Positions 48,337 to 54,165 of a stretch of 64,000 bases of DNA are shown here, piece after piece. The stretch's first letter is position 1. Every line of letters starts with the position of its first letter. Source of the stretch: Qipengyuania oceanensis (lineage in GTDB: Bacteria; Pseudomonadota; Alphaproteobacteria; Sphingomonadales; Sphingomonadaceae); NCBI RefSeq assembly GCF_009827535.1, contig NZ_WTYN01000001.1, positions 186,001-250,000 on the forward strand, given 5' to 3'. The translations under genes were made by a program, and so were the position numbers. Under the pieces are notes generated by a model. The model saw only the letters and a program-made list of their open reading frames with translations. It had not been told where the DNA came from and searched no databases.

Positions 48337-49641
48337 TTACATACCCGGATAAACGGGGAAGTCGGCGCAAAGCTCCGAAACCTTGCGGCGCACGGCTTCC
48401 TCGACCTGGGCATCGCCTTCGGCCCCGTTCTTCGACAGGCCTTCGGCCACTTCGGCGATCAGCGCGCCGACCTTGCGGAATTCCTCCGTGCCGAAACCGC
48501 GCGTGGTGCCTGCCGGCGTGCCGAGGCGAATGCCGCTGGTCACAAACGGGCTGCGCGTGTCGTAGGGAATGCCGTTCTTGTTGCAGGTGAGCCATGCGCG
48601 GTCGAGACCGGCCTCTGCGGCCTTGCCGGTCACGTCCTTGGCCGTGAGGTCCACCAGCATCGAATGGTTGTCGGTGCCACCGGACACGATCCTGAGGCCG
48701 TTTTCCTCCAGGCTCGCAGCGAGCGCGCGAGCATTGGCGACCACCGCCTTGGCATAGTCCTTGAACTCGGGGCGCAGCGCCTCGCCGAACGCGACCGCCT
48801 TGGCTGCGACGACATGCATCAACGGGCCGCCCTGCATGCCGGGGAACACCGCCATGTTGATCGGCTTGGTCAGCTCCTCGTCGTTCCACAGGATCACGCC
48901 CGAACGCGGACCGCGCAGGCTCTTGTGCGTCGTGGTCGTGACGACGTGGGCGTGCGGGAAGGGGTTGGGGTGCTCGCCGCCGGCGACGAGGCCGGAGATG
49001 TGGCTCATGTCGACCATCAGATAGGCACCGACCTCGTCCGCGATCTTGCGGAACGCGGCCCAGTCCCACACCCGCGAATAGGCGGTGCCGCCCGCGATGA
49101 TGATCTTCGGATTGTGGGCCTTGGCGATGGCACGGACCTCGTCCATGTCGATGCGCTCGTCTTCCTTGCGCACGCCGTAGGGGACGGGGTTGAACCACTT
49201 GCCGCTCATGTTGACCGGCGACCCATGCGTGAGATGGCCGCCCGAATTGAGGTCGAGGCCCATGAAGGTATCGCCCGGATTGAGCAGCGCGAGGAAGACC
49301 GCCTGGTTCATCTGGCTGCCCGAATTGGGCTGCACATTGGCGAACTGGCAGCCGAACAGCTTTTTCGCGCGCTCGATCGCCAGCGTCTCGACGACGTCCG
49401 CATAGTCACAGCCGCCGTAATAGCGCTTGCCGGGATAACCCTCGGCATACTTGTTGGTGAACACGCTGCCGGTCGCTTCGAGCACTGCACGCGAGGCGAT
49501 GTTCTCGCTTGCGATCAGTTCGATCTTGTCCTGCTGGCGCTTGAGTTCGTTGCGGACCGCGCCGAAGATTTCGGGGTCGGCCTGCTCGAGGCTGTCGGAC
49601 CAGAAGCCGGTCATCGGGCGGGTGAGGGTGTCGGTGCTCAT
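48337..49641 (-). CDS. glyA: Serine hydroxymethyltransferase GlyA
   Basis: GlyA interconverts serine and glycine with tetrahydrofolate, the main source of one-carbon units. The 434-residue PLP enzyme has the cofactor Lys in [16 protein letters not shown], the substrate loop [35 protein letters not shown] and [14 protein letters not shown]. The ATG at 49641 overlaps the rpiB stop by 4 bp. serB, which provides serine, is elsewhere in the window. Confidence 0.97.
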
Positions 49642-50102
49642 TGGAAGGGCTCGATCGTGTCGGTGTCGGAGGGAGGGTTGGAAAGCTTGTCGACCCGGCG
49701 CTGGTGGCGGCCACCGGCGAAGTCGGTGTCGAGGAACGAAGCCAGGCAGGCTTTGGCCATGTCGCTACCGGTCAGGCGCGCGCCCATCGCGATGCAATTC
49801 GCATCATTGTGTTCGCGGGCGAGGGCGGCGGACAACGGCTCGGATACGAGCGCGCAGCGCACGCCAGGGTTGCGGTTGACCGAGATTGAAATACCGATGC
49901 CAGACCCGCACAGCGCGACGCCGCGCTCGGCCGTGCCTTCGGCGACCACTGCGGCGAGCTTGTAGCCGTAGTCGGGATAATCGACGCTGTCGGTCGTGTC
50001 GGGGCCGAGATCGGCGACTTCGTGACCCTGTTCGATCAGCCAGTCGCGCAGCTCGGCCTTCAGGTCGATTGCGGCATGGTCGGAAGCGATCGCAATGCGC
50101 AT
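49638..50102 (-). CDS. rpiB: Ribose-5-phosphate isomerase B
   Basis: RpiB converts ribose 5-phosphate to ribulose 5-phosphate in the pentose phosphate pathway. The 154-residue LacA/RpiB-fold protein has [20 protein letters not shown] (phosphate loop), [20 protein letters not shown], and the active-site Cys in [20 protein letters not shown], plus [23 protein letters not shown] at 50102. It is the first gene of the leftward unit and its stop overlaps glyA. Confidence 0.95.
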
Positions 50103-50248: not shown

Positions 50249-51337
50249 TCATGCCCGCCGGATTGCAGTTTTCGTAAGGTGACGCGCACGCCCCTGCGCC
50301 ATGGCCAAGGCTCCGGCGACATAGAGACAGAACAGCATCCCTTCGAGCGCACCCGTGGCCGCCGCGGTGAGCGGCCCGAAACCGGGATCGCCGATGCCAC
50401 TGCCCAAGGTATCGAGCCGCACGGCGGCTTCCGGAAAGGCGTTCGACAGGCCGACGAGGCTTCCGCCGAGCATGGTTCCCCCGAGCAATGGAATGAGCGC
50501 GCCGGTCGCAGCGCCGATCATCGCTGCAAGTGCGATCCAGCTCTTGCGCTCGCCGGCGAGGGTGCCGGTGCGGGACAGGAACAGGAGCAATCCGATCGCC
50601 GCTCCGAAGCACAGGCCTTCCAGCGCGCCTGTCACGCCCAGGGGCGCGCGCCCGACCAACAGGCCGAAGGCGTCTGTGCTTACGAGATTGCCCAGCCCGC
50701 CGGTCACAAAGCCGCCAATCGCGCCGCCGACAATCGGGCCGTACTGCCTGAGCGCAGCAAAGCGATCCGCGATTTCGATGCCGAGCGCGATGCCCATTGC
50801 CGCAACCGCCGCGATCCCTGCGCAGATGGCGAACATCACCACCAGCAGGGAGACACCCGCGCTTGCTCCGCTGCCGGAGGGCGCCGACGCGGCGAAGGTG
50901 TAGAATACGGCCATCATCGCGCCCGCGAGCGCGCCGCCCAAGGCGGCCATCAGCACTGGGGAAGGCGTATCCACCCGCATGGTCACGGCGCGGTGGCCGA
51001 GCGTTTCTGTCGGTTCGCGCACGTTTTCGACGGGCGCGATGAAGCGATAGCCGTAGCGCGGGACCGTCTCGATGAAGCGCGGGTTCTGGGCCTCGTCGCC
51101 CAGTGCCTGCCGCAGGCTGCGGATCGCCTGGGTCAGTGCCTCGTCGGTGACCGGCACGCCTTTCCAAGCTTCGTTGAGAAAAAGGTCCTTGGTGACCAGT
51201 TCGCCCCGATGGCGAAGGAGCAGCAGAAGCACGTCGAGATAGCGCCCGCCCAGATCGACCGGCTCGCCATTGCGCAGCAGCCGTCGTTCGTGCGGTTCCA
51301 GCACGTAGTCGCCGAAGGACAGTGCCTCGTCCGGCAT
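50249..51337 (-). CDS. Membrane-anchored winged-helix regulator (ToxR/CadC-like)
   Basis: A 362-residue one-component regulator. Residues about 1-100 are an OmpR/PhoB-type DNA-binding winged helix: FGDYVLEPHERRLLRNGEPV, LGGRYLDVLLLLLRHRGELV, and QNPRFIETVPRYGYRFIAPV. There is no receiver domain. From about residue 125 the protein has roughly seven hydrophobic, Gly/Ala-rich helices (for example GIAAVAAMGIALGIEI, GAIGGFVTGGLGNLV). The layout is like ToxR or CadC but with a polytopic rather than single-span anchor. Its probable target is the divergent membrane gene at 51427, across an 89-bp gap. ATG at 51337. Confidence 0.82.
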   Translation of the reverse strand: MPDEALSFGDYVLEPHERRLLRNGEPVDLGGRYLDVLLLLLRHRGELVTKDLFLNEAWKGVPVTDEALTQAIRSLRQALGDEAQNPRFIETVPRYGYRFIAPVENVREPTETLGHRAVTMRVDTPSPVLMAALGGALAGAMMAVFYTFAASAPSGSGASAGVSLLVVMFAICAGIAAVAAMGIALGIEIADRFAALRQYGPIVGGAIGGFVTGGLGNLVSTDAFGLLVGRAPLGVTGALEGLCFGAAIGLLLFLSRTGTLAGERKSWIALAAMIGAATGALIPLLGGTMLGGSLVGLSNAFPEAAVRLDTLGSGIGDPGFGPLTAAATGALEGMLFCLYVAGALAMAQGRARHLTKTAIRRA

Positions 51338-51426
51338 TGCTCAGATATTCCTCATGCGTTGCTCATGGCTTTCACCGCCATCCTAGGCACGCTCCGGCTA
51401 TCGCTCAATGGATGAAGGAATACGAC

Positions 51427-51987
51427 ATGACCGACACGACAAATATTCCGGGCACCACTGCCGACGAAGCGGGGCGCCTCGATGGAGTGCTGCGGATTGC
51501 CGGCTGGGGCACGGCGGGAGTGATGTTCGCGATCCCGGCAATCGCCATGACGCTGACGCACGAGGTCGACTGGGATGCGACCGATTTCGCGGCGTGGGGC
51601 ATCATGCTTCTCACCACCTGCCTGCTGGGAGAGGGCGTGCTGCGCGCGTACCCGAACTGGCCGGCCCGCGCCGGCGCAATCCTGTCAATCGCCGCCGGCT
51701 TCCTGCTCGTGTGGGTCAACCTGGCGGTGGGCTTCATTGGCGACGGGATCAACCAGTACAACGCCGTCTACCTCGCCATGCCGATCGGCGTCGTGGCAGC
51801 AGGAGCACTCGCACGGTTTCGCGCGAACGTCATGCAATGGTTGTTGATAGGCTGCGCCCTGGTCCAGCTGGCGATCCCGGTCGCGGCGAGTGAGAGCGGG
51901 CGGTTCGAATGGATCGCGACGGCCGTATTCTGCGCCTTGTGGCTGGGTGCCGCCGGACTTTTTCGGAAATCACTGGGCTTCCGCTGA
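51427..51987 (+). CDS. Polytopic membrane protein of unknown function
   Basis: A 186-residue membrane protein with five or six hydrophobic segments starting near residue 22 (IAGWGTAGVMFAIPAIAMTL) and ending near WIATAVFCALWLGAAGLF. The short soluble N-terminus reads MTDTTNIPGTTADEAGRLDG. The ATG at 51427 follows GAAGGA by 9 nt. I do not recognise the family. Because it diverges from the membrane-bound winged-helix regulator, control by that protein is likely, perhaps as sensor partner or target. Confidence 0.7.
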   Translation: MTDTTNIPGTTADEAGRLDGVLRIAGWGTAGVMFAIPAIAMTLTHEVDWDATDFAAWGIMLLTTCLLGEGVLRAYPNWPARAGAILSIAAGFLLVWVNLAVGFIGDGINQYNAVYLAMPIGVVAAGALARFRANVMQWLLIGCALVQLAIPVAASESGRFEWIATAVFCALWLGAAGLFRKSLGFR

Positions 51988-52152: not shown

Positions 52153-54165
52153 TCACTGGTCGAGGAAGCTGCGCATCTTGCGGCTGCGCGACGGGTGCTT
52201 GAGTTTCCTCAGCGCCTTCGCCTCGATCTGGCGGATACGTTCGCGGGTGACCGAGAACTGCTGGCCGACTTCTTCCAGCGTGTGATCGGTATTCATGCCG
52301 ATGCCGAAGCGCATGCGGAGCACGCGCTCCTCGCGCGGCGTTAGCGAGGCAAGAACACGGGTGACCGTTTCCTTGAGGTTCGACTGGATCGCCGCGTCGA
52401 CCGGGATGACCGCGTTGGGATCCTGGATGAAGTCGCCGAGATGCGAATCTTCCTCGTCGCCGATCGGCGTTTCGAGACTGATCGGCTCCTTGGCGATCTT
52501 CATCACCCGGCGAACCTTTTCGAGCGGCATGGAGAGTCGAGCGGCCATTTCTTCCGGCGTCGGCTCGCGGCCTTCTTCGTGGAGGAACTGGCGGCTGGTG
52601 CGCACGAGCTTGTTGATCGTCTCGATCATGTGGACCGGGATACGGATCGTGCGGGCCTGGTCGGCGATCGAACGCGTGATCGCCTGCCTGATCCACCATG
52701 TCGCATAGGTCGAGAACTTGTAGCCGCGGCGGTACTCGAACTTGTCGACGGCCTTCATCAGGCCGATATTGCCTTCCTGGATCAGGTCGAGGAACTGCAA
52801 CCCGCGGTTGGTGTATTTCTTGGCGATGGAGATAACGAGGCGCAGGTTCGCCTCGACCATTTCCTTCTTCGCGATGCGCGCCTCGCGCTCCGCTTTCTGC
52901 ACCATGTTCACGATGCGGCGGAACTCGTTGAGGCTCATGCCGGTGGCCGCGGCGATGTCCGCGATCTCCGAGCGGATACGCTCGATCGCATCGGCTTCCT
53001 TCTCGGCGAAGGCGGCCCACTTCTTGTCCTTCTTCGACGCGTCCTTGATCCAGGTGTCGTCGAGTTCGTTGCCGATGTAGATGTCGAGGAACTCGCCGCG
53101 CTTCACCTTGTGGCGTTCGGCAAGGCGAAGCATCTGCCCGCCAAGCGCGGTCAGGCGGCGGTTGAAGGCATAGAGATTGTCGACCAAGAACTCGATCTTG
53201 GTCGCGTGGAACTGCATGCTCTCGACCTCGGCCGTGAGTTCCTCGCGCAGCTTTTCGTATTTCTTTTCCTTGGCGGCGGGGAAATCGTCGCCTCGGCCGA
53301 GCACGTCGACGCGCTCTTCCTGGATCTTCTCGAAAGTCTTGAACAGCTTGGTGATGCGCGCGAACCGTTCGAGCGCCTCGGGCTTCAGCGTCGCTTCCAT
53401 TTGGGCGAGCGAGAGGGTGTTGTCTTCCTCGTCGTCTTCGTCCTTCTTGGAGGACGAGCCTTCCTCGCCATCCTCGTCGTCGGAATCGCTTTCCTCCTCG
53501 ACTTCATCGTCGTCGTCGCGGATCGAGGGACCGGCGGTCTCTTCGGAAATCTCGCCGTCGTCGTCGTCTTCCGCGTCGTCGGTCATCTTGTCCGGCGGCG
53601 GTTCCTTCGACAGCATGGCGTCGAGATCGAGGATCTCGCGCAGCTGCATCTCCTCCGCATTGAGCGCTTCGGACCACTGGATGATCGCGTGGAAGGTGAT
53701 CGGGCTTTCGCACAGCCCCATGATCATCATGTCGCGGCCGGCCTCGATGCGCTTGGCGATCGCGATCTCGCCTTCGCGGCTGAGCAGTTCGACCGCGCCC
53801 ATCTCGCGCAGGTACATCCGCACCGGATCGTCGGTCCGGTCGACGGTTTCCTTCTTCTTGGCAGGCGCGGCGGCAGCCGTCTTGGTGCTCTTGGACGGAG
53901 CGGCGCTGATCTCTTCGACTTCGTCGGAGCTCTCGGCTTCGCCTTCCTCGTCGTTCTCGACGATCTGGACACCCATCTCGGACAGCGCCGTCTGGATGTC
54001 CTCGATCTGGTCGCTGCCGAGATCCTGCGGCAGGGCCTCGTTCAGCTCATCATAGGTGACGTAGCCCTTTTTCTTGGCCTTGGAGATGAGCTTCTTCACC
54101 GACGCCTCGTTGAGGTCGATCAGGGGAGCGTCTTCCTTTTCCGTTGCCTTCGACTTGGTGGCCAT
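52153..54165 (-). CDS. rpoD: RNA polymerase primary sigma factor RpoD
   Basis: The housekeeping sigma-70. The 670-residue protein has region 1.1 (residues about 15-75), region 1.2 ([20 protein letters not shown], 112-131), the non-conserved region, 2.1-2.4 ([40 protein letters not shown]), region 3, and 4.2 ([20 protein letters not shown]). The non-conserved region holds a run of almost only Asp, Glu and Ser (residues about 195-249, 53419-53583). ATG at 54165, 9 bp after dnaG. Confidence 0.97.

Follow-up and report, generated by a model that had tools for sequence, protein, structure and literature searches.

The window analysed here is a stretch of 64,000 nucleotides (G000:C1:186001-250000) within a 2.87-Mb genome. 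It holds a regulator gene and a gene for a small membrane protein, here called the partner, which diverge over an intergenic gap of 89 bp (51338-51426). An initial annotation had read this divergence from the letters, and the coordinates of the two open reading frames, 50249-51337 on the minus strand and 51427-51987 on the plus strand, bear it out. On one side of the pair lies an rpiB-like gene (49638-50102), and on the other a gene for an rpoD-like sigma factor (52153-54165), both names being read from translations. The features of the locus are as follows.

50249..51337, minus strand: regulator gene, open reading frame with ATG start, 362 aa; OmpR-type winged helix and polytopic membrane domain
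51020..51328, minus strand: winged-helix DNA-binding domain, residues 4-106; PF00486, structural matches to ToxR and CadC
50255..50959, minus strand: membrane domain, residues 127-361; six long and two short helices (AlphaFold2), conserved acids
51336..51374, minus strand: putative operator of four direct repeats, from the gap alignment; R4 overlaps the regulator start codon
51374-51366, minus strand: operator repeat R1, TGAAAGCCA
51365-51355, minus strand: operator repeat R2, TGAGCAACGCA
51354-51344, minus strand: operator repeat R3, TGAGGAATATC
51343-51336, minus strand: operator repeat R4, TGAGCAAT
51380..51408, minus strand: possible regulator promoter, TTGAGC (51408-51403), 17 bp, TAGGAT (51385-51380); by eye, just upstream of the operator
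51388..51393, plus strand: CACGCT, -10-like hexamer for the partner at positions +14 to +19, 13 bp past the operator
51415..51419, plus strand: ribosome-binding-like AAGGA, 7 nt before the partner ATG, by eye
51427..51987, plus strand: partner gene, open reading frame, 186 aa; six membrane helices in the model, no Pfam or NCBIfam name for the family

Domain structure of the regulator and the partner

The regulator is a member of the OmpR/PhoB winged-helix family, as PF00486 (Trans_reg_C) matches residues 24-99 with 57.9 bits, above the curated Pfam cut-off of 26.2. It is the sole Pfam family found in the window protein up to E 1, a search in which a LytTR DNA-binding domain was absent. PF00486 is also matched by 83/83 aligned regulator members at E 0.1 or better. 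Beyond it, only scattered weak Pfam matches occur in the 83 proteins, and the receiver domain of two-component response regulators was found neither in them nor in the window protein. DUF1932, ECF_trnsprt, SHR3_chaperone and similar matches, each seen in one to three members of the regulators or partners, were rejected as chance. Among the 50 structural matches listed by VIA-align, ToxR (8b4d_C) ranked best, with Z 17.2 and 103 residues superposed at rmsd 1.4; CadC (5ju7) was also present with Z 14.8 and rmsd 2.6 over 102 residues. The protein is not covered by the CadC equivalog NF007540 of NCBIfam, which gave 68.4 bits against a threshold of 400 and matched residues 3-117 only. In the regulator tree, the window protein forms a long branch.

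About 240 residues follow the winged helix and belong to no Pfam family. The AlphaFold2 model of the regulator, built on 83 aligned proteins (mean pLDDT 91.6, pTM 0.74), contains six long helices at residues 127-150, 158-191, 200-228, 238-256, 264-284 and 322-361, and two short ones at 290-300 and 309-315. No extracytoplasmic or periplasmic domain is apparent in this helix list, and no long stretch lies outside the helices. The initial annotation had described an OmpR-type winged helix fused to about seven membrane helices; the fusion stands, and the number becomes six long helices with two short ones. By predicted structure, the protein belongs to the transmembrane transcription regulators, a class in which a single polypeptide combines a DNA-binding domain with one or more membrane helices. 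All 83 aligned relatives share the glycine-rich C-terminal membrane domain with its invariant residues. Three of its acids are conserved, namely D222 (83/83), E240 (82/83) and E332 (83/83).

Comparison of the membrane-domain profile with PDB sequences gave a best E of 0.34. When the full-length model was used as the query, the best 50 matches listed by Foldseek and by VIA-align were all winged-helix proteins. A possible internal TGxxEG hairpin repeat is weakly indicated over 31 columns (hhalign p 1e-4, probability 57%; reversed control 0.3%). Searched with a profile restricted to the membrane part, 398 genomes from across the phylum yielded matches in 11, and the complete winged-helix and membrane architecture was encoded at every one of the 11 loci.

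The partner is likewise modelled with six helices (mean pLDDT 91.9, 46 sequences). Nothing exceeded the cut-offs of Pfam or NCBIfam for its family, and a Pfam search of the 46 partners gave only scattered weak matches. There was no sequence match in the PDB up to E 1 and no Foldseek match at E 0.001. The earlier description of the neighbour as an unknown membrane protein is therefore retained. Homology of the partner to the regulator membrane domain, or of the two partner halves to each other, was considered and found unsupported (probabilities 0.5 to 1.2%).

Distribution of the pair and attachment of the operator to the partner

A scan of genome contigs found 344 stretches encoding a relative of the regulator, some of which perhaps share the winged helix alone. 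The best 80 were kept, of which 79 span most of the protein and one (L127) is cut at a contig end. Most of these loci belong to Sphingomonadales and Caulobacterales; a few are gammaproteobacterial (Luteimonas, Woeseiaceae), and the rest carry other labels. The partner profile matches 41/80 of them. A third member of the module was also sought among the first 25 clusters of open reading frames of at least 90 aa within 4 kb, frames over the regulator that were taken by eye as shadows being set aside. Only the partner (39 loci) recurred in at least 10 of the 80 loci; next in frequency, at 9 loci each, were citrate synthase and a stretch represented solely by other frames.

The family sample consisted of 397 genomes of Sphingomonadaceae, the family of the window. 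The regulator is present in 78 of them (76 full length; two partial, G191 and G300), according to a cut set by the analyst between 9e-58 and the winged-helix-only matches that start at 8e-30. For each genome, the best 5 regulator and the best 8 partner candidates were scored, so these counts are lower bounds of presence. In 62/78 regulator genomes, no more than 180 bp separate the partner match from the regulator match. The 62 linked pairs comprise 47 divergent pairs, 14 with the partner downstream on the same strand and one convergent pair. The remaining 16 genomes are divided into 10 with a partner elsewhere and 6 with none at E 1e-10. A full-length partner (match longer than 450 bp) occurs in 67/78 regulator genomes vs 10/319 others (Fisher p ~6e-53). 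The pairing of regulator and partner is far beyond chance, and the same pair sought in other genomes is conserved. On a weakly resolved tree, the linked forms must have changed arrangement seven times or more.

Partner family matches, long or short, were found in 131/397 family genomes. A short form of about 107 aa, corresponding to the N-terminal half, is common, with 59 short matches (e.g. L046, L048, L050 and L052). As a target of the regulator, the short form was rejected because it showed no association (9/78 regulator genomes vs 50/319 others). Since the short form is not tied to the regulator, the partner family has a wider role. In G077, G101 and G388, a short partner match adjoins the regulator.

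The aligned gaps share the motif TGAGCGGCA-TGAGCAACTCC-TGAGGTTTTGC-TGAAAAATG, in which TGA/TGAG repeats are placed at 9, 11 and 11 bp and run up to the regulator start. In the window, this operator reads TGAAAGCCA-TGAGCAACGCA-TGAGGAATATC-TGAGCAAT on the minus strand from 51374 to 51336. The exact 9-11-11 spacing was present in 27/35 divergent gaps and 13/47 other regulator upstream regions, and in 1/16,400 shuffles that preserved base composition alone. Tandem direct repeats of the OmpR/PhoB type, about 11 bp apart, are conserved at this promoter as a sequence pattern.

The exact pattern with 15 fixed bases was found in 57/397 whole genomes, some of which are the same organisms as the motif-discovery loci (e.g. 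G013 and L087), and in none when the pattern was read backwards. All 57 are among the 78 genomes with the regulator (Fisher p ~1e-51). The pattern was found in 0/319 regulator-free family genomes, including 10 with a full-length partner. A second pattern, allowing up to two mismatches and searched in the 78 regulator genomes, matched 56 (control 0). Matched genomes carry one to four such sites, most of them at the partner, and the genome of the window carries a single one.

By the two patterns, a site lies between the genes in 49/62 linked pairs (hand tally). Of the other 13, 11 were scored with a PWM, G365 and G344 being left out of this check. In eight of these, a site scoring PWM 17 to 38 is intergenic or stands at the end of the regulator gene; in G144 the partner is preceded only by a site of 8.7, and nothing in G319 or G388 reaches PWM 8. 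Because 27 of the divergent sites served to train the PWM, its results for divergent pairs are not independent; the rearranged and unlinked cases are.

In the rearranged loci and the unlinked L045, the site precedes the partner and keeps its relative orientation, with PWM 16 to 42. This holds for the tandem loci L097 and L120, the convergent L068, and L098 and L113, where the partner is kilobases away. L101 and L107, with the partner upstream on the same strand, have weaker sites (16.0 and 20.1). In L045 the partner is on another contig and has the operator, and at the regulator of the same genome (L013) no site reaches 9. Altogether, a site scoring at least PWM 15 lies within 260 bp of the partner gene in 45/50 cases; the 50 include L010 and L087, which are one locus, and L064 and L070, which are nearly identical. 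Four of the five partners without such a site (L041, L042, L043 and L051) come from genomes without a full-length regulator and, as a negative control, score -5 or lower. The fifth is the exception, the convergent L105, with no site within 260 bp of the partner and a site of 12.6 farther out. The contig of L105 is labelled Bacteroidota and may be mis-binned. In the family sample, a site precedes the partner in 10/10 genomes that have it elsewhere: by the exact pattern in G022, G069, G162, G212, G260, G321 and G343, with two mismatches in G407, and by PWM in G160 (19.9) and G391 (13.7 and 11.0).

The pair, the operator, its dependence on the regulator and its attachment to the partner are established by genome comparison. 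The initial annotation had seen a self-contained sensor/target pair at this locus, and this picture gains support from the conserved pair, the operator upstream of the partner and the restriction of the exact pattern to regulator genomes.

In some genomes, other genes also carry the operator. At partner-free loci (Brevundimonas, other Caulobacterales and one Woeseiaceae genome), the genes that it faces are other small ones. One kind codes for proteins of about 148 aa, related by blastp, in L080, L083, L096, L100, L103, L115 and L124, and another for a 92-aa protein in L079, L082, L086 and L090. At further sites in family genomes, a gene lies on the side where the partner would be. These genes encode a protein of 116-128 aa with about three helices by eye (G162, G214, G321), a protein of about 141 aa (G199, G362), a B12-radical SAM protein (G063, G199), DUF4153 (G407), a TonB-type receptor (G260) and a 146-aa membrane protein with an MFS transporter on the other side (G144). 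Second sites also occur in G212 (34.0) and G343 (34.4, at a contig end), and those of G228 (PWM 16.0) and G235 (nothing at PWM 8) were put down to chance. Many of the operator-linked genes encode membrane proteins, which points to envelope or membrane homeostasis.

In two genomes (L140, L141), the operator stands at a gene for a B12-binding radical SAM protein distantly like HpnJ/HpnR. Its assignment as a hopanoid enzyme was rejected, since HpnJ gave 78 bits against a cut-off of 578. Among the aligned regulators, 25/83 are labelled as having neither a linked partner nor an adjacent operator of exact spacing; three of these, L111, L116 and L126, have PWM sites of 24.3, 18.2 and 25.6. In L074, L075 and L116, a gene that by eye is dual-specificity-phosphatase-like diverges from the regulator, and the operator of L116 is weak (PWM 18.2).

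Proposed mechanism and rival readings

A -10 element placed beyond the operator repeats, with the nearest repeat in the position of the -35 element, is the layout of PhoB-type activators. Alignment of 45 partner promoters gave C14 in 32/45, A15 in 34/45 and T19 in 22/45, a weak -10 consensus CAnnnT, and the -35 position falls on the nearest repeat. An enrichment of CA was likewise seen in a mixed set of 32 additional sites scoring at least PWM 24 (C 20/32, A 19/32, T 13/32); most of these lie at unrelated genes, and four are at second or half partners.

The best reading, and a probable one, is that the regulator is a membrane-embedded one-component activator of a small membrane protein. Between the two genes, the N-terminal winged helix would bind the four tandem TGA/TGAG half-sites with their 9-11-11 bp spacing. 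On the partner side, the outermost repeat would take the place of the -35 element, 13 bp from the CAnnnT -10 element; owing to this position, the bound regulator most likely recruits RNA polymerase. Recruitment would then switch on the six-helix partner. We infer that the membrane domain itself receives the signal. The six-helix domain would most likely respond to some condition of the inner membrane or to a hydrophobic ligand, with D222, E240 and E332 as the first candidates for signal reading. The partner would be a response protein, possibly with feedback.

The opposite direction of control, in which the regulator represses the partner from an operator overlapping the -35 region and frees the promoter on signal, is unlikely. 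The operator does overlap the -35 position of the partner, where binding could block RNA polymerase, and repression is known in the OmpR family, as in the case of ArcA, which represses carbon-oxidation pathways (PMC3798270). However, position counts of the partner promoters reveal no conserved -35 hexamer other than the repeats themselves, and an activator that replaces the -35 element would need just such a constant spacing to the -10 element, here 13 bp. Less probable still is a partner that acts mainly as a ToxS-like accessory protein, stabilizing or tuning the regulator, with an operator that serves autoregulation. The tight co-occurrence of the two genes would fit such a role, and several membrane transcription factors, e.g. 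ToxR, have an associated protein (PMC10269533). Nevertheless, the operator follows the partner rather than the regulator when the genes are apart (L045 vs L013; L098, L113), and it is also found at unrelated genes, although the partner could still do both.

Two further readings deserve very little credence. The repeats could belong to a more general transcription factor with the regulator as a mere neighbour, a reading favoured by the eight other PF00486 matches in the genome of the window. This is very improbable, as the regulator is present in 57/57 genomes with the exact pattern though in merely 78/397 overall, and matching genomes have one to four sites at up to two mismatches, most at the partner. 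It is similarly hard to believe that the protein is an ordinary ToxR/CadC-family regulator with an unremarkable membrane part. Its DNA-binding domain is indeed closest to those of ToxR and CadC, but 83 relatives share the glycine-rich membrane domain with invariant residues, in which six helices are modelled for the window protein.

Relation to known systems and significance

ToxR and CadC, the best-studied membrane transcription factors, have one membrane helix and a periplasmic sensor domain. The regulator shares with them the N-terminal cytoplasmic OmpR-type winged helix, the membrane anchoring and the one-component logic, whereas their single helix and periplasmic sensor are replaced, in the model, by a six-helix domain with no apparent periplasmic domain. 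The nearest working parallels are BcrR and HigX, membrane factors that each have a compact helical bundle and lack a periplasmic domain (PMC13384398). HigX of Caulobacter crescentus is also alphaproteobacterial and has a multi-helix membrane domain with no apparent periplasmic domain. It differs in its four N-terminal helices and its LytTR DNA-binding domain, and the available part of the source describes no such dedicated partner (PMC13384398). The four-helix membrane domain of BcrR (Enterococcus) senses its ligand directly and stimulates its targets from the membrane; it differs from the regulator in helix number and in its known ligand, bacitracin (PMC13384398), the likeness noted here being one of membrane domains. 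Of 50,302 transmembrane transcription regulators in a bulk survey, 27% have more than two helices (PMC10269533). The survey shares the class definition used here, and the available part of it does not describe the regulator family, the operator or the partner (PMC10269533).

With respect to the operator, direct repeats 11 bp apart from centre to centre are known in the OmpR/PhoB family, including the tandem repeats of ArcA and PhoB, and most ArcA sites have three to five repeats (PMC3798270). In contrast to the regulator, ArcA and PhoB are soluble response regulators, and the operator described here has a 9-bp first spacing and a TGA/TGAG half-site. None of the titles and abstracts listed in searches of open-licence PMC papers deals with the regulator, its operator or the partner.

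Multi-helix membrane transcription factors are already known from BcrR and HigX, and what is added here is an unusually well-defined operator and target. A wider proposal can be entertained with slightly less than even confidence. It suggests that these proteins form a distinct family of one-component activators, in which the glycine-rich six-helix domain senses a membrane-borne signal through its conserved acids and the four-repeat operator controls a small regulon of largely uncharacterised membrane proteins; the whole would be a membrane-homeostasis switch in Sphingomonadales, Caulobacterales and some Gammaproteobacteria. How membrane-held transcription factors sense signals and find promoters is poorly understood (PMC10269533). 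The regulator is a compact example of a membrane protein that would act directly on DNA. With no apparent periplasmic sensor, a likely target, an operator defined to the base pair and a single site in the genome at up to two mismatches, the system could be tested with one reporter. It also provides a first lead on the role of the unnamed membrane-protein family of the partner.

The operator also bears on transcription of the regulator itself. In the divergent arrangement it reaches the start codon of the regulator, and therefore binding should lower the regulator's own transcription. An element related to the possible promoter of the window, TTGCCT-N17-GASGCT, was found in 23/82 regulator upstream regions vs 0.3% in shuffles, with a regex composed after inspecting the sequences. 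This element is probably the regulator's own promoter; if so, the operator lies at the start of the regulator transcript, which suggests autorepression. The same element is kept upstream of the regulators of L055, L065, L074, L117, L123 and others, even where the search for an operator or partner gave none.
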